From: a virus | Reading direction: 5' to 3' (one strand) | Length of the DNA: 48,703 nucleotides | IMG/VR virus record: IMGVR_UViG_3300033388_001701 | Span: 1 to 48,703 of that record | Shown: in pieces, positions 7,803 through 48,703 of the stretch | Layout of the letters: every line of letters starts with the position of its first letter | Numbering within the stretch: position 1 is the first letter of the stretch | Notes under the pieces: model-generated | Told to the model about the DNA's origin: nothing | What the model saw: only the letters and a program-made list of their open reading frames with translations | Database searches by the model: none | Made by a program: the position numbers and the translations under genes

Positions 7803-8019
7803 ATTCTACCCCGTATTTCTCTTTGTAGATTCGGATCAAATGATCGTATATAGCGCATTTTGTAATCCCACAATATTTTCCGGCCACTTCATATGTGTGG
7901 CCATGAAACAATACATCATAAAGCACCGAAGCTACTCTTGGTGATTTATCATCCAAAAATCTTGCGGTCTCATCTGGCTGCATATTAATAGCTTGAACTA
8001 GCTTGCTTTTGCTTCTCAT
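7783..8019 (-). CDS. Small helix-turn-helix protein
   Basis: 78 residues. Residues of about 41-65 fit a helix-turn-helix: T-Y-E-V-A-G-K-Y-C-G-I-T-K followed by a recognition helix with Y-D-H-L-I-R-I-Y. A DNA-binding regulator is the natural inference. The protein is only slightly longer than the domain, like small phage repressors or activators. It overlaps the ligase start by 4 bases. Confidence 0.6.
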   Translation of the reverse strand: MRSKSKLVQAINMQPDETARFLDDKSPRVASVLYDVLFHGHTYEVAGKYCGITKCAIYDHLIRIYKEKYGVEYAKREI

Positions 8020-9197
8020 TCTTCCACCTCTGTTTTATCATAGCGAAAACCTTTAAATCGTGGTTGTCTCATTGAGCCATTTTTCGTTTCTTCTTTGTAT
8101 TCACATTCAGCAATCTTTCCCATATTGTGAATTTGGTTAAACCATATATTTTTTCTTTGTGCATCAGTAAATCCCGTTCCAACTTTAACTGCTATCCCCT
8201 TAAAATCAACAATAATTTTCCCAAGGGAGCCAGCCAAGCGTCCTTTCCCTTCCTCGAAACCAATCACTTGACAATCGGCAGCTTTCTTTGGAACCAATCT
8301 TGTCCAATCCCAAGACCTGGCATCCCTATATTCATGGTTATTAGTATAAACAACCAATCCTTCTTCACCAGCTAATAATACTCCTTCATAAATAGCCATT
8401 AATTGTGCTTCATTCTTTATCCAATAGTGAGGGACAATTTTTATGCAATTCGTTACTTGAATGTTACGCAACATAAACAAGTATCTCGCCCACTTTGATA
8501 TATCAAGTCCAGGAATATCAAACAACCAATAAACAGCATTAGGCACTGATTGATGATTACGAATAAGACCTGAAGCACCATCGAAATCAATTCCGGGAAC
8601 CATCATTTCCCCGTCTTTTTCAAAGTTATATTTTTCCAATTCGTTTTCGATATGATCAAACCCTATGAAGCGATGACCGGCCCTTGTAAACATTTCATAA
8701 GCTACCGCTCTAGCTCGGACACCATCTTTCTTAATTGCGGCAACAAGAGGGTATTTCGCTTTTTCTGGATCGAAAGTCTTGAGCAGCATGATTGATGGTT
8801 TTTCAGACCCATCTTTTAATCCAGGGATCAGGCCGGGAAATATTTTATTAATTGTTTTCAGGCCAACGCCCATCCTTAAATCTTTATTGATGATTTTCTT
8901 GAACAGGTCTGCATGTTCTGGGATAAGGGTTATGATATGGTCGCAGACTGTTTCAAGAGCAGTATGGCCGGTTATCTCTCTATTCGCCAAATCGTCTAAT
9001 AGATCGAATGAGGATTCATCAATGACCCATCCAGCATTATCCCCTTCAGTAATAGGTGCGGTCATGTAAAACTTTATGAATGGGTCGTAAACGTATTTCA
9101 ATAACTTCTTGAAGTCGTCTGTATCACCATACCTATAAAGCAAATCCTGCTTCTCATTTCCACTGGCTTTCGCTATTTCGTTAATTAAGTGGTGCAT
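8016..9197 (-). CDS. ATP-dependent DNA ligase
   Basis: 393 residues, similar in length to phage T7-type ligases. Nucleotidyltransferase motif I is K-K-D-G-V-R, with Lys156 as the residue that carries AMP. Motif IV appears as E-E-G-L-V-V-Y and motif V as R-L-V-P-K-K. A C-terminal OB-fold with A-V-K-V-G-T-G-F-T-D follows. It seals nicks in double-stranded DNA during replication and recombination. The N-terminal helical extension of about 140 residues resembles that of longer ligases. Overlaps the polymerase gene end by 17 bp. Confidence 0.92.
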   Translation of the reverse strand: MHHLINEIAKASGNEKQDLLYRYGDTDDFKKLLKYVYDPFIKFYMTAPITEGDNAGWVIDESSFDLLDDLANREITGHTALETVCDHIITLIPEHADLFKKIINKDLRMGVGLKTINKIFPGLIPGLKDGSEKPSIMLLKTFDPEKAKYPLVAAIKKDGVRARAVAYEMFTRAGHRFIGFDHIENELEKYNFEKDGEMMVPGIDFDGASGLIRNHQSVPNAVYWLFDIPGLDISKWARYLFMLRNIQVTNCIKIVPHYWIKNEAQLMAIYEGVLLAGEEGLVVYTNNHEYRDARSWDWTRLVPKKAADCQVIGFEEGKGRLAGSLGKIIVDFKGIAVKVGTGFTDAQRKNIWFNQIHNMGKIAECEYKEETKNGSMRQPRFKGFRYDKTEVEE

Positions 9198-12006
9198 TTC
9201 TTGTGATCCTCCTTATTGCTGATATAAATATCATTCCCCAACCGTTTACCTTCTGGCCATAAACCATATACCAATCTTTTTCTTCTTTACCTGATTCGGC
9301 GATTGACCTTCCTAACCTCTCATAATCTTCAGATTTTATTTTACACATTATTTCGCCGGTATCGTCTTCAATTATTATGTTTAGATATGAAGTTGGTCCG
9401 ACAATATGTTTTCCATCCCTTTTAGCGACAAAACATGCTTCGTTTTTATCTCTAAGGCTTTTCTTAATTAGACAACCTATTACTGTGTAATCACCATCGG
9501 CTTTGATGTTTTGTATTTGATGTATCCCATTCGTTACACCATGAGAAGAAGGATCAGTATAATAATCCCCATATAATTCTTTTGCTGGATAAAGATATTT
9601 AAACGGAGTATCACCTATTTTTAACAGTTTGGTTAATCCAGCAGGAATAGTCTTTCCTTCTTTCCTACACTTAATTACTTTATTCGCTTTTACTGGTCCA
9701 ATCCCATCAATGGTCAGCAATCCACCATACAATATCCCATCATGGACGGACCATTTTTGTGTTGATATCTTTTCATCGAAGTGGATGTATTTAACTCCAT
9801 CGTTCTCGCAAACGTCACGCAACAACCTTAAAGCTGTTCTATCACTCTTTGCGTTGTTGAGCGAAGCAACTGTAAACTCTAAAAAATGATGTGCTTTCAT
9901 ATAGGCGCAAAGATACGATACAAGACCGTATGATACCGAATGCGATTTGTTAAAGGCGTATGCGCCCATTGTATTGATGCCATCCCAAACCTTTTCAGCA
10001 GTTTCTACATCGTCACCGTTCTTCAAAGCTCCTTCAATAAACAACTCTTTATATTTATCAAAAAATTCATCACCAAGGCTTTTACTAACCGCTTTTCTCA
10101 GTGTTCCGGTATCTTCCCAAGAAAGGCCACCATATTCTCTACATATTTTAAGCATTTGCTCTTGGTAAACAATTACCCCAAAAGTGCTTTTCGTTGCTTC
10201 AACAGTCGTATGATGGTTGCTTAAATATTTTATATCTTCTTTTCCGGTTCGGTATTTGAGGTAACGGTTTGCCCCGCCAGATGCCAAAGGCCCTGGCCTT
10301 CCTAATGCGGTAAGAGCGGAAATGTCTTCCATATCTTCAATAGGCATTTGTTTTGCTAATCTTTGGATTGCTGCCCCTTCAAATTGAAATATCCCGGTAA
10401 ACCGATGATCGTTAAACACTTTATATGTTTCTGGGTCGTCTACTGGAATATCATACAACCAGTTATACGGCTTTCCTATTTGATCACATACACCAGCAAA
10501 AATAGTCAATGTTCTTAACGCAAGAGAATCAATCTTTAACAGACCAATCGTTTCAGCATCTTTTTTGTCCAGCATTGCTATCCGCTTATTGTCTCTGCTG
10601 TTGACTCCTGCATAATTTGTTATGGGCGAATTGCAAACAAGTATTCCGGCTGCATGGACGCTTGTATGTGAAGCATGACCCTCAATCTTAGAAACGGATT
10701 TCATATGTGGGTATGATTCGATTATCTTTTTCCCAATCTCCGAATCATTAAATGAATCTTCAATGCAAAGATCAGACCTTTCATCACCGGCTGGCCTGGT
10801 GATTATTGAATCTTTAATTTCATGGACATCATCAAGAGGGATATGAAAGGCTTGGGCAAATCTCTGAATAGCGGATTTAGGCTTTAACCGAGAAATATTT
10901 CCTATTTGGGAAACCTTATCGTCACCATATTTTTTCTTCAAATAGTTCAATACCAGATGACGTTTGTCGTCCTGAAAATCAATATCAATATCTGGCAAGT
11001 CGAAGCGGTTTACATCAATAAACCTCTCAAAATAAAGGTCATATTCAATAGGATCAATTTCAGTAATCCCCATCAAATAACAGACTAAAGAACCTGCTGA
11101 AGAACCACGAGAAGGTCCAACAACCATTTTCTTTTTTGCATACCGAATGAGATCAGCAACTACAAGAAAATAATCTACATATCCTTTATCATGGATAAGC
11201 TTCATTTCTCTTACAAATCTTTCTGCATATGGTCCATTAAGGATATCGATGTCTTTCTCTTTGGCTCCTTTTCTACACCATTGAGCGATATCATCTTTTC
11301 CAATATACTCAACCATTGGAGCATGAGGGAGCTTAACGCTGCATTCATTGGTTAATCTTTCAAGATTGTCTAAAGCTGATTCCCTTCCCGGAAATTCCAT
11401 CAACCATTCTTCTCTAGTCAATATATGAATCGGGCTTGTTTTATGTTGTCTTAACCGTTGATCAGCAAATGGTTCATAAATTCCAATGTCGTCTACATCA
11501 GGATAATAATTATCAACACAAGCGATATAATAAAAACCTTTTAAATTTCTTTGGTGAATTGGCAACGATGGGGAAAGCTCCATGAAGATTTCCCGTTCAA
11601 TGAGGTCGAATCTTGGAGCCATACCGCTTAGAATTGCAACATCCTGGCTCACCAAGTTCATTTGGCGGTAGTCAATCCTTGGCATATAATAAAATTGTTT
11701 GTGTGCGGTATCAACCAAGGCATATAATTCTTGCAATCCCTTTTGGTTTCTAGCAATGAGCGTCATTACATTGAAAGGGCTTCGCCTTTCTTTGTTGTCT
11801 ATGCCATCTACAACAGGCAATTGAACACCATAGATGGGTTTGATTCCGGCTTTCTTACAAGCCTTCATCCATCTAATGTGACCAAAGGTATTATTAATAT
11901 CAGTCATCCCGGCACAAGAGCCAAGTTTAGCACATTTAGCAGCAACTTGATCTAAATGACCATACACCTGTTTAAATGAAAATTCTGTCTTACAGTTAAT
12001 CCACAT
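9181..12006 (-). CDS. DNA polymerase III alpha-like (family C, DnaE type) replicative polymerase
   Basis: 941 residues, shorter than bacterial DnaE (about 1,160). The family C palm is clear: G-P-S-R-G-S-S-A-G-S followed by F-E-R-F-I and P-D-I-D-I-D-F, with catalytic Asp339 and Asp341. A C-terminal OB-like region is present from about residue 820. The N-terminus has the shape of a PHP domain but the metal-binding H-x-H is replaced by N-C-K, so it is probably inactive. Proofreading may come from the DnaQ-like exonuclease two genes upstream. Phage-encoded family C polymerases are known but less common than families A and B. Confidence 0.92.
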   Translation of the reverse strand: MWINCKTEFSFKQVYGHLDQVAAKCAKLGSCAGMTDINNTFGHIRWMKACKKAGIKPIYGVQLPVVDGIDNKERRSPFNVMTLIARNQKGLQELYALVDTAHKQFYYMPRIDYRQMNLVSQDVAILSGMAPRFDLIEREIFMELSPSLPIHQRNLKGFYYIACVDNYYPDVDDIGIYEPFADQRLRQHKTSPIHILTREEWLMEFPGRESALDNLERLTNECSVKLPHAPMVEYIGKDDIAQWCRKGAKEKDIDILNGPYAERFVREMKLIHDKGYVDYFLVVADLIRYAKKKMVVGPSRGSSAGSLVCYLMGITEIDPIEYDLYFERFIDVNRFDLPDIDIDFQDDKRHLVLNYLKKKYGDDKVSQIGNISRLKPKSAIQRFAQAFHIPLDDVHEIKDSIITRPAGDERSDLCIEDSFNDSEIGKKIIESYPHMKSVSKIEGHASHTSVHAAGILVCNSPITNYAGVNSRDNKRIAMLDKKDAETIGLLKIDSLALRTLTIFAGVCDQIGKPYNWLYDIPVDDPETYKVFNDHRFTGIFQFEGAAIQRLAKQMPIEDMEDISALTALGRPGPLASGGANRYLKYRTGKEDIKYLSNHHTTVEATKSTFGVIVYQEQMLKICREYGGLSWEDTGTLRKAVSKSLGDEFFDKYKELFIEGALKNGDDVETAEKVWDGINTMGAYAFNKSHSVSYGLVSYLCAYMKAHHFLEFTVASLNNAKSDRTALRLLRDVCENDGVKYIHFDEKISTQKWSVHDGILYGGLLTIDGIGPVKANKVIKCRKEGKTIPAGLTKLLKIGDTPFKYLYPAKELYGDYYTDPSSHGVTNGIHQIQNIKADGDYTVIGCLIKKSLRDKNEACFVAKRDGKHIVGPTSYLNIIIEDDTGEIMCKIKSEDYERLGRSIAESGKEEKDWYMVYGQKVNGWGMIFISAIRRITRNAPLN

Positions 12007-12558
12007 TTATTCTTTTCCTGGACAATGATCGCTTTTTAAGATACGAGGATGGTGGTTCTTCCTACCTGGCTCAAGATGGAACACTCTTATGTGGTTCCTT
12101 AATATTTTTGTGCAAAAATGAGTAAAATGCCAACCGGGGGTGTTTGGTGGTTCTCGATTTTGTTCTTCTTCAGTAGGGTTTAACCATTTGCATCCATCAC
12201 AATAAATATCGTCTTCTTTAACCCCATTTTTAGGATATTTGATCCAATCTCTTCCAATGACCTCTGAGAAAGCAATATCGACACACTCTTTGAAATTTAT
12301 GTTTTTTGTGGTACAATAATTGCAAAGATAAATAACGAGATCACCGACAGCATCTTTTATTTCTTCTTCGGTTTTGGTTTTATCATAACCACGAATACCC
12401 TGTTCTCCTTTCAGGTCAGCATGGCTAAGTTCTCCAAGCTCTTCAACAACCCCTTTAAATTGTTGGTCAGAAGTAGTGTTTGGGAAATTGTGGTTAAGCC
12501 AAATTTGAAGCCTATTTTGTAATTCGTTTGCTATCATCTTCTCTGCCTCAATAACCAT
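12007..12558 (-). CDS. MazG-like nucleotide pyrophosphohydrolase with C-terminal Cys/His module
   Basis: 183 residues. Residues 8-95 carry the all-alpha NTP pyrophosphatase pattern E-E-x-x-E (Glu39, 40, 43) and E-x-x-D (Glu66, Asp69), which bind magnesium. Such enzymes remove non-canonical or excess nucleoside triphosphates. The second half has Y-C-D-G-C-K-W, H-F-C and D-H-C-P-G, a possible zinc site joined to the MazG domain. Its stop abuts the polymerase ATG and its start overlaps the exonuclease by 25 bp. The role of the C-terminal module is unknown. Confidence 0.8.
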   Translation of the reverse strand: MVIEAEKMIANELQNRLQIWLNHNFPNTTSDQQFKGVVEELGELSHADLKGEQGIRGYDKTKTEEEIKDAVGDLVIYLCNYCTTKNINFKECVDIAFSEVIGRDWIKYPKNGVKEDDIYCDGCKWLNPTEEEQNREPPNTPGWHFTHFCTKILRNHIRVFHLEPGRKNHHPRILKSDHCPGKE

Positions 12559-13067
12559 TTATATGATTCATAAGTTGCTAATACATCGTTTTTAGCCCGA
12601 TGCGCTCCGTCTATTTCTTTGCCGGTAGCTATTTTATACAACTCATTGTTTTTTAAACGGAACCCTTTAACCCACATGGACTGTTCAACCGTGCAAAATT
12701 TAATTGGTGGGTAGGGGAAATGATATTCTTTTCCTATTCTTTTCAACTCGTTAATTAATATCCCTTCATCAAATGTAAGGTTATGAGCAATTACCGTATG
12801 ACTGCCAAAAAAGACCTCAACAATCTTTCTGTAAACTTCTGGGAATGTTGGCGAGTTGGCAACCATTGCATTTGTGATCCCGTTTATCTTTGGGATATGG
12901 TCTGGGATCGGAATTGGTGGTCTGATCAATGATTCAAACTTTGAAGCCACTTCTCCATTATCATCAAATTGAATAGCACATATCTCTATCATATGCGGCT
13001 GAATAGACAATGGTGTTCCGACAGCTTCTAGCAATCCTGTTGTTTCTGTATCAAGGACCGTGATCAC
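12534..13067 (-). CDS. DnaQ-like 3'-5' exonuclease (DEDDh)
   Basis: 177 residues starting at a GTG at 13067. All three motifs are present: Exo I L-D-T-E-T-T-G (Asp6, Glu8), Exo II A-H-N-L-T-F-D and Exo III H-R-A-K-N-D. These are the residues of the proofreading epsilon subunit. It is encoded just ahead of the DnaE-type polymerase, which seems to lack an active PHP site, so it is a good proofreading candidate. A role in degrading host DNA is also possible. Confidence 0.9.
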   Translation of the reverse strand: MITVLDTETTGLLEAVGTPLSIQPHMIEICAIQFDDNGEVASKFESLIRPPIPIPDHIPKINGITNAMVANSPTFPEVYRKIVEVFFGSHTVIAHNLTFDEGILINELKRIGKEYHFPYPPIKFCTVEQSMWVKGFRLKNNELYKIATGKEIDGAHRAKNDVLATYESYKWLLRQRR

Positions 13068-19160: not shown

Positions 19161-19196
19161 AATATTGCCTCTTTATTGTTAAATGTGATGGTTTCA

Positions 19197-19380
19197 CCCG
19201 AACCCGAACCCGTCCCCGAACCCGAACCCGAACCCGGACCCGTCCCCGGACCCGTCCCCGGACCCGGACCCGGACCCATCCCCGAACCCGTCCCCGGACC
19301 CGTCCCCGTCCCCGAACCCGAACCCGGACCCGTCCCCGTCCCCGAACCCGAACCCGGACCCGGACCCGGACCCGAACCCG
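19197..19380. repeat. Tandem hexanucleotide array (CCCGAA/CCCGTC/CCCGGA)
   Basis: Thirty consecutive hexamers plus a final CCCG: 11 CCCGAA, 10 CCCGGA, 8 CCCGTC and one CCCATC. On the leftward transcript it reads as G-runs every six bases (GGGTTC, GGGTCC, GGGGAC), a strong G-quadruplex pattern. It fills the gap between the stop at 19385 and the leader of the Sak4-like gene. It is far more GC rich than its surroundings. All six frames are open only because the repeat lacks stop codons. Confidence 0.97.
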
Positions 19381-20380: not shown

Positions 20381-20683
20381 TTATGCTTCGTAGCTTTCTT
20401 CGGTCTTCGCTATAAAAATATCTCCCCATTCACTGGCGCTAAATGAAACAACCTTCCCATTTTTGAACCTGATCCAAATCATATCGCCATCGACATCTAT
20501 TGATGCTTCATCACTATCAATGCCTTTTGATTTTTCGGTCAATCTGGTTTCTGCATTGTCTGTGTCGGTGTCACATAATAAGTACGTGTTTGTTGTTACA
20601 AATGCTTTATCAACAATATCACCAAATATTTTAATGGCGATTCCGGTTAACTTAATATCATGTCTTATGGCAATCTTATCCAT
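20381..20683 (-). CDS. Hypothetical protein
   Basis: 100 residues, acidic, with likely alternating strands, a single cysteine and no membrane segment. No family recognised. Its 3' end carries GCATAAAC over the stop codon, the same octamer seen at the ends of two cassette-like genes to the right, so it may belong to or border that array. Confidence 0.5.
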   Translation of the reverse strand: MDKIAIRHDIKLTGIAIKIFGDIVDKAFVTTNTYLLCDTDTDNAETRLTEKSKGIDSDEASIDVDGDMIWIRFKNGKVVSFSASEWGDIFIAKTEESYEA

Positions 20684-20887
20684 GATGAGCCTTTTGCTCT
20701 ATTTGAGCGTTTTGGTTTAAAGTTTCTCGTTCCTAGTTAAAAGTCACCGGGCTTTCCACCCGACTTGGATAACTCTTTTGACATAGGCATTCCGGGTTGT
20801 GCTGATCAGGCAGTCCGGCCCTTGTGACAAGATGGTTTCACTCTTTTCTCAAGCCGAGACTCGGGGGAGTGATCGGCTAGAAATTCA
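20684..20887. other. Non-coding structured segment, possible RNA element
   Basis: No convincing gene. Several nested inverted repeats occur: GTCAC/GTGAC with GGGC/GCCC (20743-20828), ACCCG/CGGGT inside it (20758-20797), and a hairpin AGCCGA-ACTC/GAGT-TCGGCT (20852-20878). The arrangement suggests a folded leader RNA on the leftward transcript ahead of 20381-20683. I do not recognise a known riboswitch or tRNA. A 17-codon frame at 20737-20790 has no ribosome site. Confidence 0.4.
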
Positions 20888-20958
20888 TGTTAACTGATCC
20901 AAAAAGTAAAGTAAAGGTTTAATCACGCACTTGGAGCGGTTTATGCAAAAGGTTGTGT
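20888..20958 (-). repeat. attC-like imperfect inverted repeat A
   Basis: 71 bp. On the + strand TGTTAAC opens and GTTGTGT closes the element; TCCAA (20898-20902) pairs with TTGGA (20931-20935). The right box lies inside the 3' end of gene 20941-21222. Reading leftward, the sequence after the right box, CTTTTGCATAAACCGC, matches the end of element D. Boxes are less regular than in element B, so this is the weakest of the four. Confidence 0.45.
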
Positions 20959-21222
20959 AGAAACATCGCTATTAAGAAAGGCCGCGATGTCGGCGTTAGT
21001 GATCACGTGGGTTTCCAAGTAACCATCCACAGCCTCTCTTGCGCTCTTATAGCAATAAAAACTGTTATACTTCCCGGTATCGAAACAAAACCAATTGAAC
21101 CCGATAATGTCATACGATTTGCTAATTTGTGGCATTAAGATAAATTTCCGCCCGGTATCTTTGCTCTTGGCACATATTGGCATGTCATATCTTAAGTCGC
21201 CTTTTTCTTCCTGATACCACAT
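20941..21222 (-). CDS. Cassette-like gene, hypothetical 93-aa protein
   Basis: Start ATG at 21222 with AAAGGAGATT upstream; the longer frame would read through element B. Globular, mixed charge and aromatic rich. The middle has I-I-G-F-N-W-F-C-F-D-T-G and A-V-D-G-Y-L-E-T-H. No family recognised. It lies between attC-like elements B and A in the position of a cassette gene, with its stop inside element A. Confidence 0.6.
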   Translation of the reverse strand: MWYQEEKGDLRYDMPICAKSKDTGRKFILMPQISKSYDIIGFNWFCFDTGKYNSFYCYKSAREAVDGYLETHVITNADIAAFLNSDVSTQPFA

Positions 21223-21253
21223 AATAATCTCCTTTAAAGTCATCTGTGTTTCT

Positions 21254-21339
21254 GCCCAACCAGCCAATAAACCGGAGCCGATCAAGCTAAGTGTTATTAT
21301 TTGTGGCCCTTTGGCGGCCCGGTTATCACTAAGTTGGGC
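21254..21339 (-). repeat. attC-like site B (best match)
   Basis: 86 bp between the stop of 21342-21596 and the RBS of 20941-21222. Outer boxes GCCCAAC and GTTGGGC are perfect complements and match the integron R-box consensus RYYYAAC/GTTRRRY. Inner arms AACCGG/CCGGTT and GCCG/CGGC are paired with a single unpaired base at 21276, the type of extrahelical base that guides integron integrases. The loop is about 34 bases. The extra base sits on the arm opposite to the usual one if the cassette runs leftward. Confidence 0.65.
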
Positions 21340-21341
21340 GT

Positions 21342-21596
21342 TTAATCCCACTTAAGGGTTTCGGCCCAGTCAAACAATTCTTGTTTCGTGGTAAAGTCCT
21401 TTTTCCGGGCCTTCATCACCGTGGCCAATTTGCCAAACGCAAAACACAAAAACATAATACCGGTAACCAGCGTCCACCACTTGCTGCCCATACTTAGCCA
21501 AATGCAAAATGCGAGAAAAGAGAATGTTGTAAGGTCGCTAAACAGGCTCTTAACGAAAGACTCCGTGCGGTCTATTACTGCGTATTTTTGCTCCAT
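21342..21596 (-). CDS. Cassette-like gene, small membrane protein
   Basis: 84 residues, RBS GGAGGTAATT. Two hydrophobic helices at about residues 24-36 and 40-56 (WLSMGSKWWTLVTGIMFLCF region), with a basic loop and a polar C-terminus. TAA lies three bases from the R box of element B. No family recognised. Small membrane proteins are common cargo of integron cassettes; a role in exclusion or host interaction is a guess. Confidence 0.62.
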   Translation of the reverse strand: MEQKYAVIDRTESFVKSLFSDLTTFSFLAFCIWLSMGSKWWTLVTGIMFLCFAFGKLATVMKARKKDFTTKQELFDWAETLKWD

Positions 21597-21613
21597 AATT
21601 ACCTCCGAGTATC

Positions 21614-21701
21614 GCCCAACCAGCCGTTCTTGCGGACCAGAAGAACAGCAGTGTTAAAATCTATTAGGCCTCTGGCTGGCCGTAAAACTCAGTCGTTATG
21701 C
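21614..21701 (-). repeat. attC-like site C
   Basis: 88 bp. GCCCAACCAGCC at its left end is identical to the first 12 bases of element B. CCAGCC (21620-21625) pairs with GGCTGG (21674-21679), and GTTCTT/AAGAAC forms a side hairpin. The right box GTTATGC deviates from GTTRRRY at one place. The TAA stop of the neighbouring gene lies inside this box, as is usual in cassettes. Confidence 0.55.
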
Positions 21702-21947
21702 GTAAAACGGGTCAAGCACCAGGAATTTTTGTTCAGTGAAGTCAAACCTAGCCACCACCAAATCGCCTTTTATACCTATGAATGTTTCTCCCTGGCGCGG
21801 CGCATGAATGCCGACAAGAGCCGGGCATTTGCCTATCTCTACGTCATCATGATCTTGGCCGCAGTACATACAATCAGTCTCGCCTTTTTGGGCCTTGTGC
21901 CATAATCTTTTATCAGTTTTATTGTCCGTGATTTCTCTTACAAGCAT
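21696..21947 (-). CDS. Cassette-like gene, hypothetical protein with Cys motif
   Basis: 83 residues from ATG 21947 behind GAGGAATTTAATT. Contains C-M-Y-C-G-Q-D-H and a later G-K-C-P, a possible zinc site, then a beta-rich C-terminal half ending D-P-F-Y-A. No family recognised. Stop codon inside the R box of element C. Confidence 0.6.
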   Translation of the reverse strand: MLVREITDNKTDKRLWHKAQKGETDCMYCGQDHDDVEIGKCPALVGIHAPRQGETFIGIKGDLVVARFDFTEQKFLVLDPFYA

Positions 21948-21960
21948 AATTAAATTCCTC

Positions 21961-22048
21961 ACATAACCAGCGCATTAAATCGACCAGAAGAACGCCGGTG
22001 TTAAATGTGCCAGTTCTGGGGGCTGGCGGTTTATGCAAATCGTTGTGC
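21961..22048 (-). repeat. attC-like site D
   Basis: 88 bp, the same length as element C. Boxes ACATAAC and GTTGTGC share AAC/GTT ends. CCAGC (21967-21971) pairs with GCTGG (22022-22026), and CCAGAA (21984-21989) with TTCTGG (22014-22019). A segment ACCAGAAGAAC is shared with element C. The right box overlaps the end of the short frame at 22031-22186. Confidence 0.5.
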
Positions 22049-22186
22049 ACCTAGTCCTTGACAACCAAAAGGCCATTGCCACACTCCTGAACAATAATTC
22101 CATTCATAATTCCTCCGTGCGCACACCAGCACATGCACTCTGCGCAAGAGCGGGTTAACTTGGTCGCCTGTTGATATTGTGTTCAT
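22031..22186 (-). CDS. Short frame (51 aa), first cassette position, doubtful
   Basis: ATG at 22186 preceded by AAGGAGATACGGGA, about 40 bases downstream of a strong promoter. The product is cysteine and tryptophan rich with no recognisable family. A second start within it in another frame (ATG at 22107, RBS GGAGGAATT) gives an 18-residue peptide ending at 22051. Either could be a leader peptide, or the stretch may be a non-coding attI-like platform. Confidence 0.35.
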   Translation of the reverse strand: MNTISTGDQVNPLLRRVHVLVCARRNYEWNYCSGVWQWPFGCQGLGAQRFA

Positions 22187-22228
22187 TCCCGTATCTCCTT
22201 GTTTGTTTATCCATCAACCGTTAAATAT

Positions 22229-22257
22229 ATCTTAACAGGCACAAAGAACACTGTCAA
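22229..22257 (-). promoter_or_regulatory. Sigma70-type promoter upstream of the cassette-like array
   Basis: TTGACA (22257-22252) and TAAGAT (22234-22229) with a 17-base spacer, leftward. This is close to the bacterial consensus. It begins just after the primase-helicase stop and would drive the array, the place held by the Pc promoter in integrons. Confidence 0.75.
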
Positions 22258-22283: not shown

Positions 22284-25043
22284 TTAATTCATTATGTTTA
22301 TTTGCCAATAAGCCATGTTACGATTCATTTTCGTTAATTGTTTATTTCCGAATACTGCTCCTGTCATCCCACCAAAGAATCTACCTACTGACATTGTGTT
22401 TTTTGCGTTCTTATCCATTAATTCTTCTAATGCTTCCCCTAACGGTGTGTCTCCTGCTTCAAATGCTCCAAATGCTTTCTTCATAAATTCTTTGGTTGTA
22501 AACTCTTTTATCCCAAAAGACTCATGAATTTCGTTTAATAGGTTCGTTTTCCCTTGAGCGTAAGGATCGGTCTTCTGGTTGTTATAGACCACTTCATTAA
22601 CATCTATTCCACTAACTACAAATAACGGCTTCCTTACAAACTGATCCCATAGTTTAAATCGTGTGGCCCCTTCCATGTCAGGTGCATTTTTCCCGGCAAT
22701 GACAATGCTTAAAACCGCGCTGATGATCTTTTTCCTGTTATCCATCGCCCACTGACCAATATTATCACGGCTAAAATGGCGTTGGTCTGGCTTTTCCATA
22801 TTGGGGTTAATTGTGATAGGATAAATCCTAGTCGCAAAATCTCCAATGAAATGTATATTATTACCAGTGAACATCCATAGAACAGAAGACGGTACTTCAA
22901 TAGTTTTGTTTTCACCTAATTTTCTCCCACCATAAATGTCTGTTGACATAGCTTTTGCCAAACGGCTTGAGCGAATATTGCTATTTTCTTGAATATTGTC
23001 GAATAGAACACAACTATGACCCTCCTGTAAGATTGCTAAAATGTATTTCCCTAACTCTTCATCGTCATTGCTCCAATCACTAGCAGCAGCAGGACGGTTG
23101 AATGAGGCATAAGAAATTAATTGAGCTAATGTCGTTTTACCGGAACTTTGGACCGGGCTAACAATTCCGAACCCTGGCATCCCACTATCGTCTGTGATTG
23201 ATGGTCGTTGGATAGCTGTCATTAAAGCAGCAACAGCCACGGCGCGATCTAAATCTGATTGAAAAGGGAATTCTGCAAAAACTGTTTCTGTTAAATATCT
23301 ATAGGCATCTTTAGGGTCCATTTGTGTCAATTTAAGTTTATGATGGATAACCGTAAAAAGTCCCGTTCTCTTATCATATCCCGGCTTTTGCATTAATTCC
23401 CAATTGTTGTTTATAAATGGGTGTTCAACAATCCCGGTAATCGGTTGAAAATTTTCGTTATCTGCTTCACCAACCATATGTAATATCCGAATAGGGCATT
23501 CAATATCTTGTCCGGTAGGACTAAGGAACATTATGTCTTTTTCCATCCTACCAGCTAATGTATAAAATGGTTTTGTGTAATGCCTAATTATCGGCATCTT
23601 CGGGTAATCCATTCCTAAATCGTCGGCCCTGGCCATTTGTCGTATTGATTTCGGTTTTCCCATTCCAATGCTAAGAAGACTTCCACCCATGACAAAAACT
23701 TGCGGTTCTTTTCCCGATCCGGCCAGGGCTTCGGCTGCAAGTTTAGCGGCCTCGCCTGTGTTCGTTTGATCGATTTCGATTTCGACAAAACCAGCAGCTT
23801 GTCTTTCTTCCGACTTTCTTTTTCTAAGTTCTTCTTTTTGTTCGTCTAATTTTTCCTGTCTGGCTATTTTAATTGTTTTCTTGACTGCATTTATCCCAAT
23901 GGATAATTTTTCCGATATGGCCCGAATAATATTTTCGAGATCAACCGGGTTAAAGCTCAATACCATCTCAGCAAAATCCTGTTGGATTTCCGAAACATTT
24001 GCAGAACTTACCCAATCATACACTTGGTCGAATGTCGGGTTATCTACAATGTCAACCGCGCTATCAACGCTCCTTTCAATATCATCAAACCGAATTTGCC
24101 ATTCGTTTAAACGGTTGTCGTCTGAAATTTCCCGTTTAGCTGCGTTCATTGCACCTTCAAGCATACTTTTGACTGTGTTAGGTGGTACACGCCTATTAAT
24201 TAATGATAGGGCTAATTTGTTTAGTTCGTTATGATAATTTTCACTTGTCAGGATTTTTTCAACCCCTGCCGCTAGATCGTAGGCTTCTTTCCTATTCGAC
24301 AATGGGATTGATTCAGATTTCCCATCCTCTTTTTCGATAACGACAGAAGGAATCCAAAATAATTTCCCGTCCTTCTTAACGTAACCGACAAAATCATCTA
24401 TCGGGTCTTCGCCACCTATACAGATTCGTTTCTGGATATACAATGGCTGGCTGCAAGTATAAATCGATTCATCAATGATATTCCCCCAGCCTTTATGTTT
24501 ATTGTATTCTTTCGCCCATTGTTTGACTTTTAAATTGTGAATCGGTTCGTCGAGCCAAAAGAAAATATGTGCTTTTAAGTCCGATGTGGTAAGCCCATAA
24601 GAGGAGGAAAATTGATAGATATAATCGGCATTGTGAAATTCCGATGGTAGTTCTTCATTAATAAAGCGTTCAATTATCAATTTCCCGTCGTCATTACCAA
24701 ATTTCCCATCGCATTTATAACCATCAACATCAATGGCAAAAAACTGTAAATCCTGGTCGATGATTGTTGGTGGTTCATTATCTTTGTTTGCCCTTTTCCT
24801 TCTGAGCATGTCAGTTTTATTTATCCCATCAACAAATTTCCCATGTATCATGAATACCGGGTAATCCATATTTTCAAGGATCGTTTCATATAAATCTTTT
24901 AAGTTTTCGACCGGGATTCCAAACCCGGTAAACCGTTTCCCGGCTTGATAGGACGCGGAAATTTCCCATCCTGTGTCTGTTTTTGTAAATTCTTTTGTTG
25001 CAATCCCTCGGCCTATCGGTGACATAAAATTAGCTTCAGTCAT
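22284..25043 (-). CDS. Primase-helicase (AEP-like primase plus P-loop helicase)
   Basis: 919 residues. An archaeo-eukaryotic-type primase site is suggested by F-F-A-I-D-V-D-G (Asp105, Asp107) and a later K-A-H-I-F-F. The C-terminal half has a P-loop S-P-V-Q-S-S-G-K-T-T (Lys636) and a Walker B-like C-V-L-F-D-N. A charged helical linker rich in K and E lies near residues 390-420. Together these fit a self-priming replicative helicase. It is transcribed leftward from the 25-kb divergent region. RBS AGGA is modest. Confidence 0.85.
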   Translation of the reverse strand: MTEANFMSPIGRGIATKEFTKTDTGWEISASYQAGKRFTGFGIPVENLKDLYETILENMDYPVFMIHGKFVDGINKTDMLRRKRANKDNEPPTIIDQDLQFFAIDVDGYKCDGKFGNDDGKLIIERFINEELPSEFHNADYIYQFSSSYGLTTSDLKAHIFFWLDEPIHNLKVKQWAKEYNKHKGWGNIIDESIYTCSQPLYIQKRICIGGEDPIDDFVGYVKKDGKLFWIPSVVIEKEDGKSESIPLSNRKEAYDLAAGVEKILTSENYHNELNKLALSLINRRVPPNTVKSMLEGAMNAAKREISDDNRLNEWQIRFDDIERSVDSAVDIVDNPTFDQVYDWVSSANVSEIQQDFAEMVLSFNPVDLENIIRAISEKLSIGINAVKKTIKIARQEKLDEQKEELRKRKSEERQAAGFVEIEIDQTNTGEAAKLAAEALAGSGKEPQVFVMGGSLLSIGMGKPKSIRQMARADDLGMDYPKMPIIRHYTKPFYTLAGRMEKDIMFLSPTGQDIECPIRILHMVGEADNENFQPITGIVEHPFINNNWELMQKPGYDKRTGLFTVIHHKLKLTQMDPKDAYRYLTETVFAEFPFQSDLDRAVAVAALMTAIQRPSITDDSGMPGFGIVSPVQSSGKTTLAQLISYASFNRPAAASDWSNDDEELGKYILAILQEGHSCVLFDNIQENSNIRSSRLAKAMSTDIYGGRKLGENKTIEVPSSVLWMFTGNNIHFIGDFATRIYPITINPNMEKPDQRHFSRDNIGQWAMDNRKKIISAVLSIVIAGKNAPDMEGATRFKLWDQFVRKPLFVVSGIDVNEVVYNNQKTDPYAQGKTNLLNEIHESFGIKEFTTKEFMKKAFGAFEAGDTPLGEALEELMDKNAKNTMSVGRFFGGMTGAVFGNKQLTKMNRNMAYWQINIMN

Positions 25044-47695: not shown

Positions 47696-48703
47696 ATGAC
47701 TACTACTGCAATAACAACGCACACAACAGATGCTAAAGCTAGGCTTATCCAGCAATATAGAGGAAAGGCAAACATCGAAGCATTGATTGCTAATTATTCT
47801 GGCGATCAAATACAAGCATTAGAAGAGGCTATTAATACGCTATACGGTCGATTAAATATAGATGGTTCAGAAGGTATTTCTCTTGATTTAATAGGCTCAA
47901 TAGTCAGCCAAGATAGAGAAGGCTTCACAGATGCGGTTTATCGCTTATGGTTAAAAGCCAGGATTGGCAAAAACACATCAGAAGGGACCATTGAACAAGT
48001 TCTTTCTATCTGGAAAATCCTCGCATCAGCGAACACTGTTCAGTTGATAGAATCCTATCCCGCTGAGATTGATCTTTATACAGATACGAGCATTGATCCT
48101 ACATTAATTGATTTGATTTTTGAATTACTTCAAACAGTAGTAGGTGCAGGAATTTCAGTCGGATTCATCGTAGTTTTTGATCCTGATGAAGCATTTGGTT
48201 ATGAAGGAACAGGTGCAAACACTGCCGGGTATGATGATATAAGTTGGCCTATAAGAACTTCTGCTGCCGATAATAATTGGTTTGGTATCACTTATGGTAA
48301 TGGTTTATTTGTAGTAGTAGCTGCAACTGGTACTGGGAATCGGGTAATGACTTCTCCAGATGGTATCAATTGGACTATCCAGACTTCAGCAGCGGATAAT
48401 ATTTGGGTTAGTATCACTTATGGTAATGGTTTATTTGTGGCCGTAGCCTCATCTGGTACTGGGAATCGGGTAATGACTTCTCCAGATGGTATCAATTGGA
48501 CTATCCAGACTTCAGCAGCGGATAATAATTGGCAATCAGTTACTTATGGTAATGGTTTATTTGTGGCCGTAGCCAATAGTGGAATCGGTAATCGGGTAAT
48601 GACTTCTCCAGATGGTATCAATTGGACTATCCAGACTTCAGCAGCAAATATTGATTGGCGTTCAGTTACTTATGGGAATGGTCTTTTTGTAGTAGTATCA
48701 GCA
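47696..48703 (+). CDS. DUF2612-like baseplate/tail protein fused to BNR-type repeats (continues at 1-444)
   Basis: Starts at ATG 47696. Residues 1-170 match the DUF2612 tail layout: L-Y-G-R-L-N-I-D-G, S-L-D-L-I-G-S-I-V, Y-R-L-W-L-K-A-R-I-G-K-N and S-E-G-T-I-E-Q-V-L. From residue 185 come repeats of 42 residues (T-Y-G-N-G-L-F-V-A-V, S-P-D-G-I-N-W-T). The frame is open at the window edge and continues into 1-444; joined length 445 residues. The fusion puts a propeller-like adhesin directly on the baseplate. Confidence 0.9.
   Translation, partial: MTTTAITTHTTDAKARLIQQYRGKANIEALIANYSGDQIQALEEAINTLYGRLNIDGSEGISLDLIGSIVSQDREGFTDAVYRLWLKARIGKNTSEGTIEQVLSIWKILASANTVQLIESYPAEIDLYTDTSIDPTLIDLIFELLQTVVGAGISVGFIVVFDPDEAFGYEGTGANTAGYDDISWPIRTSAADNNWFGITYGNGLFVVVAATGTGNRVMTSPDGINWTIQTSAADNIWVSITYGNGLFVAVASSGTGNRVMTSPDGINWTIQTSAADNNWQSVTYGNGLFVAVANSGIGNRVMTSPDGINWTIQTSAANIDWRSVTYGNGLFVVVSA
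48338..48703 (+). repeat. 126-bp tandem repeats within the adhesin
   Basis: Copies begin at 48338, 48464 and 48590 with an exact 126-bp period. The first 53 bases of each are identical. Later copies at 127-444 are more diverged. Near-identical repeats allow copy-number change and can confuse assembly. Confidence 0.95.
48590..48703. repeat. Terminal direct repeat, right copy
   Basis: Identical to bases 1-114. See left copy. Confidence 0.9.

Follow-up and report, generated by a model that had tools for sequence, protein, structure and literature searches.

An integrase-free attC array in a tailed phage genome whose cassette genes are reversed relative to their putative attC sites

We analysed the record IMGVR_UViG_3300033388_001701 of IMG/VR, a virus record of 48,703 bases; the window, as the term is used below, is this whole record. 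Between two of its phage genes there are three inverted repeats, B, C and D, which are well supported as attC sites by their agreement with a covariance model, and the array that they belong to is, with the same support, a CALIN. The three sites point rightward (+ strand), and all the cassette genes, each with a Shine-Dalgarno sequence, are read leftward (- strand). That is, the genes of the array are antiparallel to their attC sites. This antiparallel layout predominated in the viral attC arrays sampled and was rare in the bacterial arrays sampled. We think, with a probability of about 0.6, that the array is of a phage type, made of cassettes with reversed genes that would be recombined in trans by the integron integrase (IntI) of the host.

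Results

Setting of the array in the phage record

The window carries the gene set of a tailed phage, including contractile tail genes (tail sheath, baseplate) and a terminase. It also has genes for replication and recombination, namely those of a DnaE-type polymerase, a DnaQ-type exonuclease, a ligase, a Sak4-like annealing protein and a Cas4-type exonuclease. The DnaE-type protein, a DNA polymerase III alpha subunit, and the separate DnaQ-type exonuclease adjoin the ATP-dependent DNA ligase (window 8016-13067). Two tandem repeats were also noticed in the window. One of them, between two phage genes at 19196-19380, consists of about 31 copies of a 6-bp/30-bp unit (ACCCGA) and yields long low-complexity open reading frames (ORFs) in several frames; the other has 3.4 copies of a 126-bp unit and lies near the tail genes at the end of the record (48257-48690).

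The array comprises three small genes and one very short gene, all of them leftward. On its left is a phage gene of 100 aa (20381-20683) and on its right a phage gene of the primase/helicase type of 919 aa (22284-25043), both on the - strand as the cassette genes are. Neither a match to TIGR02249, the integron integrase family, nor one to PF00589, the phage-integrase domain, was found anywhere in the 48.7-kb record, and in the absence of TIGR02249 the record does not hold a complete integron. Three putative attC sites of one orientation lie within 0.8 kb of this integrase-free virus record. We therefore class the array as a CALIN in a phage, as the sequence-only reading had proposed from the architecture of the repeats, and the matches of B, C and D to the covariance model described below bear out that proposal.

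A megablast search against phages returned no near relative of this phage. Of the proteins with which IMG/VR was scanned (primase, Cas4-type exonuclease and the three cassette proteins), the exonuclease alone gave matches: three loci with 41-48% identity, which are of no use as close relatives.

Inverted repeats of the array as attC sites

Element B (21254-21339, + strand, 86 bp) is composed of R'' GCCCAAC, CAGCCAATA, L'' AACCGG and a bulged A on its left arm, and of L' CCGGTT, ATCACTAA and R' GTTGGGC on its right arm. Element C (21614-21701, + strand, 88 bp) reads GCCCAAC, CAGCCGTTC, TTGCGG, A and CCAG on the left, and CTGG, CCGTAA, AACTCAGTC and GTTATGC on the right. Element D (21961-22048, + strand, 88 bp) likewise reads ACATAAC, CAGCGCATT, AAATCG, A and CCAG on the left, and CTGG, CGGTTT, ATGCAAATC and GTTGTGC on the right. 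On the + strand, the layout of the three is R'' (7 nt), 9 nt, L'' (6 nt), the bulged A and a stem, and then the stem, L' (6 nt), 9 nt (8 nt in B) and R' (7 nt). R'' pairs with R' in each of them. As had been noted from the letters, the pair in B (GCCCAAC/GTTGGGC) fits the consensus RYYYAAC/GTTRRRY perfectly, and those in C and D retain AAC/GTT with deviating outer bases; B and C also have the stretch GCCCAACCAGCC in common, as stated there. The fixed spacing and the extrahelical base on the L'' arm, by which L'' and L' of an attC are recognized, are present in all three elements on the + strand.

A fourth repeat, element A, of 71 bp, had been listed beside those of 86, 88 and 88 bp. The latter three lengths hold at B, C and D, but the 71-bp element does not hold as an attC. 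Only its right half resembles one: this remnant (20936-20958, + strand) consists of L' CGGTTT, ATGCAAAAG and R' GTTGTGT, and includes a 22-nt direct repeat of the right half of D (91% identity). The covariance model did not match element A, and its left half is unrecognisable. GTTTCAC and GGCTAGA were considered as its R'', but both are weak candidates and neither is claimed. Farther left of the array, at window 20767-20802, there is a pair resembling R'' and R' (GGATAAC ... GTTGTGC), which scored 6.5 bits on the - strand and 4.5 bits on the + strand and is possibly another attC remnant.

A scan with a strict consensus found B alone; when the rule was relaxed to the architecture of known attCs, all three elements were found. 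In this architecture scan of both strands of the window, B, C and D were the top three (21.0, 18.5 and 18.5), and a single match of 18.5 or more turned up when the window was dinucleotide-shuffled 60 times. The spacing rule was, however, set after both known attCs and the repeats of the window had been inspected, and an independent test with a covariance model was therefore made.

This model (R1) was built from 47 attCs of arrays at integron-integrase loci of whole genomes, with the sequence of the window excluded; since the 47 were chosen with the same scanner, their choice is not wholly independent. Over the whole 48.7-kb window the model gave exactly three matches, all on the + strand: B with 30.2 bits (E 1.9e-4), C with 38.6 bits (E 3.1e-6) and D with 35.2 bits (E 1.6e-5). 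On the - strand with the filters off, the scores were only 7.5 bits for B, 3.9 for C and 7.7 for D, the last from a partial match. The sequence-only reading had named such a model as its check and had counted the lack of a match for every element among the grounds for giving it up; it thus stands in this respect.

The same reading had suggested folding each element as a single strand, and here the outcome was divided. The bottom strand of B folds to the canonical hairpin (pfold 0.44), but the pfold values of C and D are 1.5e-4 and 7.7e-4, and the attC hairpin is not their minimum, so that these two may be poor substrates. Among bacterial attCs the median pfold was 0.018, and 31% of the sites were below 1e-3. 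The folding energy of C and D is unexceptional, a point in favour of unrelated intergenic hairpins, for example terminators or RNA processing sites. This explanation is scarcely credible in view of the three covariance matches, of the conserved spacing (7-9-6-bulged A in the left arm and 6-9(8)-7 in the right arm) and of the fact that the window has no other covariance match; terminators are rejected because of the covariance matches. Rfam gave no match. A DNA pattern common to C and D had no match in IMG/VR, and its two matches in genomes, one in atpA and one in an unrelated gene region, were judged to be chance.

Cassette genes and units

The leftward ORFs that had been read from the letters are all present, each with a Shine-Dalgarno sequence. 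Gene 1 (20941-21222, - strand) encodes 93 aa and has AAAGGAG; gene 2 (21342-21596, - strand) encodes 84 aa with hydrophobic segments and has GGAGGT; gene 3 (21696-21947, - strand) encodes a Cys-containing protein of 83 aa (CMYC...C). The short ORF of 18 codons (22051-22107, - strand, GGAGGA) lies beside attC D, where the array ends.

When the units are counted from G/TT to G/TT at the R' boxes of the + strand, unit 1 (20953-21333) is 381 bp long, unit 2 (21334-21695) 362 bp and unit 3 (21696-22042) 347 bp, and the genes of these units are reversed against attC B, C and D, respectively. Lengths of 366, 360 and 347 bp had been given earlier; only the last is retained, because G-TT on the attC strand gives 381 and 362 bp for the others.

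Searches with the cassettes gave little. Three Vibrio phages carry homologues of gene 1 (42, 38 and 37% identity), and no attC was found near them when it was looked for. Gene 1 had no match in 369 gammaproteobacterial genomes, in a search that was run without a positive control. The cassettes had no match in plasmids, no relatives were found for genes 2 and 3, and Pfam, NCBIfam and PADLOC reported nothing on the cassette proteins.

It might be supposed that the attC sites were born in place between existing phage genes and were not captured as parts of cassettes. The Vibrio phage relatives of the gene 1 family, which have no attC nearby, are in keeping with this supposition, and so are two overlaps: gene 1 ends, with its last codons and its stop codon, within remnant A, and gene 3 has its stop codon within R' of attC C. 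We regard birth in place as unlikely, however, because single cassettes are common to different viral contigs, which points to the movement of complete units, and because no near relative was found with an attC-free version of the operon. In one such pair of contigs (L130 1353-1879 and L149 826-1355), and likewise in another (L183 545-959 and L193 10608-11024), the similarity ends near an attC.

Polarity of genes against attC sites

A cassette gene is normally read toward its own attC, and the strand choice of IntI enforces the orientation of the cassette (PMC11023631). Because of this arrangement, insertion at attI places the gene in sense with the promoter Pc. In the present array, none of the three genes is read toward its attC; all three are antiparallel. 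The sequence-only reading had mentioned, as a caveat, that the unpaired base of B is on the arm opposite to the usual one for leftward cassettes. This proved to be the central fact: attCs and genes point in opposite directions.

In order to call orientation in the same way in all samples, we used one simple rule, the longest ORF weighted by its start codon and Shine-Dalgarno sequence. The bacterial samples comprised two broad groups and plasmids. Integrase-linked bacterial arrays gave 100 parallel and 8 antiparallel cassettes, with 9 uncalled, and a further set from bacteria, selected on attC and not on integrase, gave 26 parallel and 2 antiparallel. Thus 126 of 136 bacterial cassettes (about 93%) were parallel and 10 were antiparallel. 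If three cassettes were drawn independently from such a supply, the odds that all of them would be antiparallel are of the order of 4e-4.

These values bear on the possibility that the array is an ordinary CALIN, that is, a piece of a chromosomal integron of the host captured as such by the phage. Several observations would agree with it: the attC sites are genuine by the covariance model, an attC of a bacterial integron (L113) starts with 13 bases identical to those of C (GCCCAACCAGCCG), and Vibrio phage p16 is a precedent (PMC9892861). But host cassettes are about 93% parallel whereas three of three are antiparallel here, a reversal that is left unexplained if ordinary host cassettes were simply captured. 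Moreover, the cassettes were not found in plasmids, gene 1 was not found in the 369 gammaproteobacterial genomes, and its homologues are in phages. Plain capture from a host integron, as the sequence-only reading had it, is therefore not upheld by these counts and searches, and we consider ordinary capture decidedly improbable.

The viral sample was obtained by scanning IMG/VR with one general attC pattern, which matched at least 120 stretches; 80 loci (L128-L207) were read, and the attCs were placed by the model. Most of the 80 loci carry covariance-supported attCs, and among the matches listed intI was present in 1 of 39 IMG/VR attC records. Integrase-free attC arrays are thus common in viral contigs. 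Among the matches listed, 66 IMG/VR cassettes were antiparallel and 29 parallel, with 43 uncalled, in a sample of contigs part of which may be host DNA fragments. Compared with the first bacterial sample, the difference at the level of cassettes gave a Fisher P of 4e-21 among the matches listed, a value to be read with the reservation that cassettes within an array are not independent. At the level of arrays, again among the matches listed, 23 viral arrays were antiparallel and 13 parallel, with 5 ties, against 1 and 34 bacterial arrays (Fisher P = 2e-8).

A large terminase of one family was present in 13 of the 39 IMG/VR attC records among the matches listed, and the terminase-positive records alone, within the same matches, had 8 antiparallel arrays to 3 parallel ones. 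Shine-Dalgarno sites precede 65 of 73 antiparallel viral genes among the matches listed. In the same set 36% of the viral arrays are parallel, and the polarity of viral arrays is a bias and not a rule. The direction of the flanks failed to separate antiparallel from parallel viral arrays among the matches listed.

Comparison with known arrays

A CALIN in a phage is of an already known kind. According to the main text of Qi et al. 2023, there were 17 phage CALINs among 10,705 phages, including those of TJE1, PH101, P12002L and MW202573, and two attCs each of TJE1 and PH101 recombined with attI1 in an assay (PMC9892861). The polarity of attC against genes is not reported in that main text, as given in the open-access literature. 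The present array resembles those described there in being an integrase-free attC array with small genes mostly of unknown function and with similar attC scores. That is, model R1 gave 39.1, 30.4 and 26.3 bits for the attCs of TJE1, 32.7 to 21.4 bits for those of PH101 and 31.6 to 20.2 bits for those of MW202573. As for polarity, the genes of PH101 (L124, NC_029094, 25919-27987) and MW202573 (L126, 2069-3738) are mostly antiparallel to attC, as here, whereas the TJE1 array is parallel; one PH101 cassette with ORFs on both strands was left uncalled. Related cassette genes (MNCEYV...YGVPACIGR...) are parallel in TJE1 (L005 1072-1467) and antiparallel in an IMG/VR contig (L165 1-300), which indicates that a gene is not bound to one polarity.

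The array also resembles chromosomal and mobile integron arrays in the R''-L''-bulged A-L'-R' architecture, in cassette size and in genes that abut the sites. It differs from them in that intI is absent, in that it lies in a phage operon and in that every cassette gene is reversed. Reversed genes do occur singly in integron cassettes, for example symE/sRNA-Xcc1 in Xanthomonas (PMC12444791). In that case, however, the reversed gene is a single exception, whereas the whole array is reversed here, as are most of the viral arrays sampled among the matches listed.

Discussion

We infer that the array would act through IntI supplied by the host, on the basis of the sites themselves and of the published assay with other phage attCs. 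In this mechanism, the host integron integrase would recombine the folded bottom strands in trans and thereby exchange single cassettes. The first site would fix the polarity of the array, and the attC direction would be uniform along it because cassettes are inserted by IntI in a single orientation. The direction of the genes would be imposed by the phage operon; because the phage has to express them along that direction, it would retain only those cassettes whose genes are reversed. When the directions of attC and operon oppose each other, only reversed cassettes would be useful, so that a supply of them would be needed. Phages may draw on a pool of such cassettes, of which the sampled bacterial arrays offer hardly any. 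The recombinogenic bottom strand would then be the non-template strand of the genes, which may be more exposed in transcription.

The polarity may also be neutral. That is, the founding site would set the attC direction randomly, the genes would follow the operon, about half of the arrays would be antiparallel, and the polarity would have no function. The attC sites and the CALIN are retained in this explanation, and what causes the polarity is the sole point on which it departs from the one that we prefer. The ratio of 23 to 13 arrays among the matches listed fits either a modest bias or 1:1, and, being a modest excess over 1:1, it leaves room for random founding polarity; the related genes found in both layouts agree with this as well. 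Yet a fully antiparallel array built from the bacterial supply would need several rare reversed cassettes (8 of 108) each time. Because these cassettes are rare there, a separate source would still be required under neutral polarity. We judge a neutral origin of the polarity to be quite possible, with the odds somewhat against it.

Returning to the phage-type array recombined by host IntI, our data suggest that viruses maintain their own pool of cassettes. We propose, tentatively and with the odds somewhat against it, that there may be a distinct phage pool of reversed-gene cassettes, in which the strand that recombines is the non-template one of a phage operon under active transcription, and that polarity may separate this pool from that of bacteria while host IntI shuffles both.

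Phage CALINs have so far been rare in the published survey as its main text gives it (17 of 10,705 phages, PMC9892861), whereas at least 120 stretches of IMG/VR match the attC pattern. The antiparallel bias indicates that the viral arrays are something other than plain fragments of host integrons, and it offers a testable handle on the origin of cassettes and on the direction of their flow between phages and bacteria. If a cassette from such a phage were inserted at a bacterial attI, it is predicted to be antisense to the Pc promoter and hence silent from Pc, which would be a functional obstacle to exchange with host arrays.
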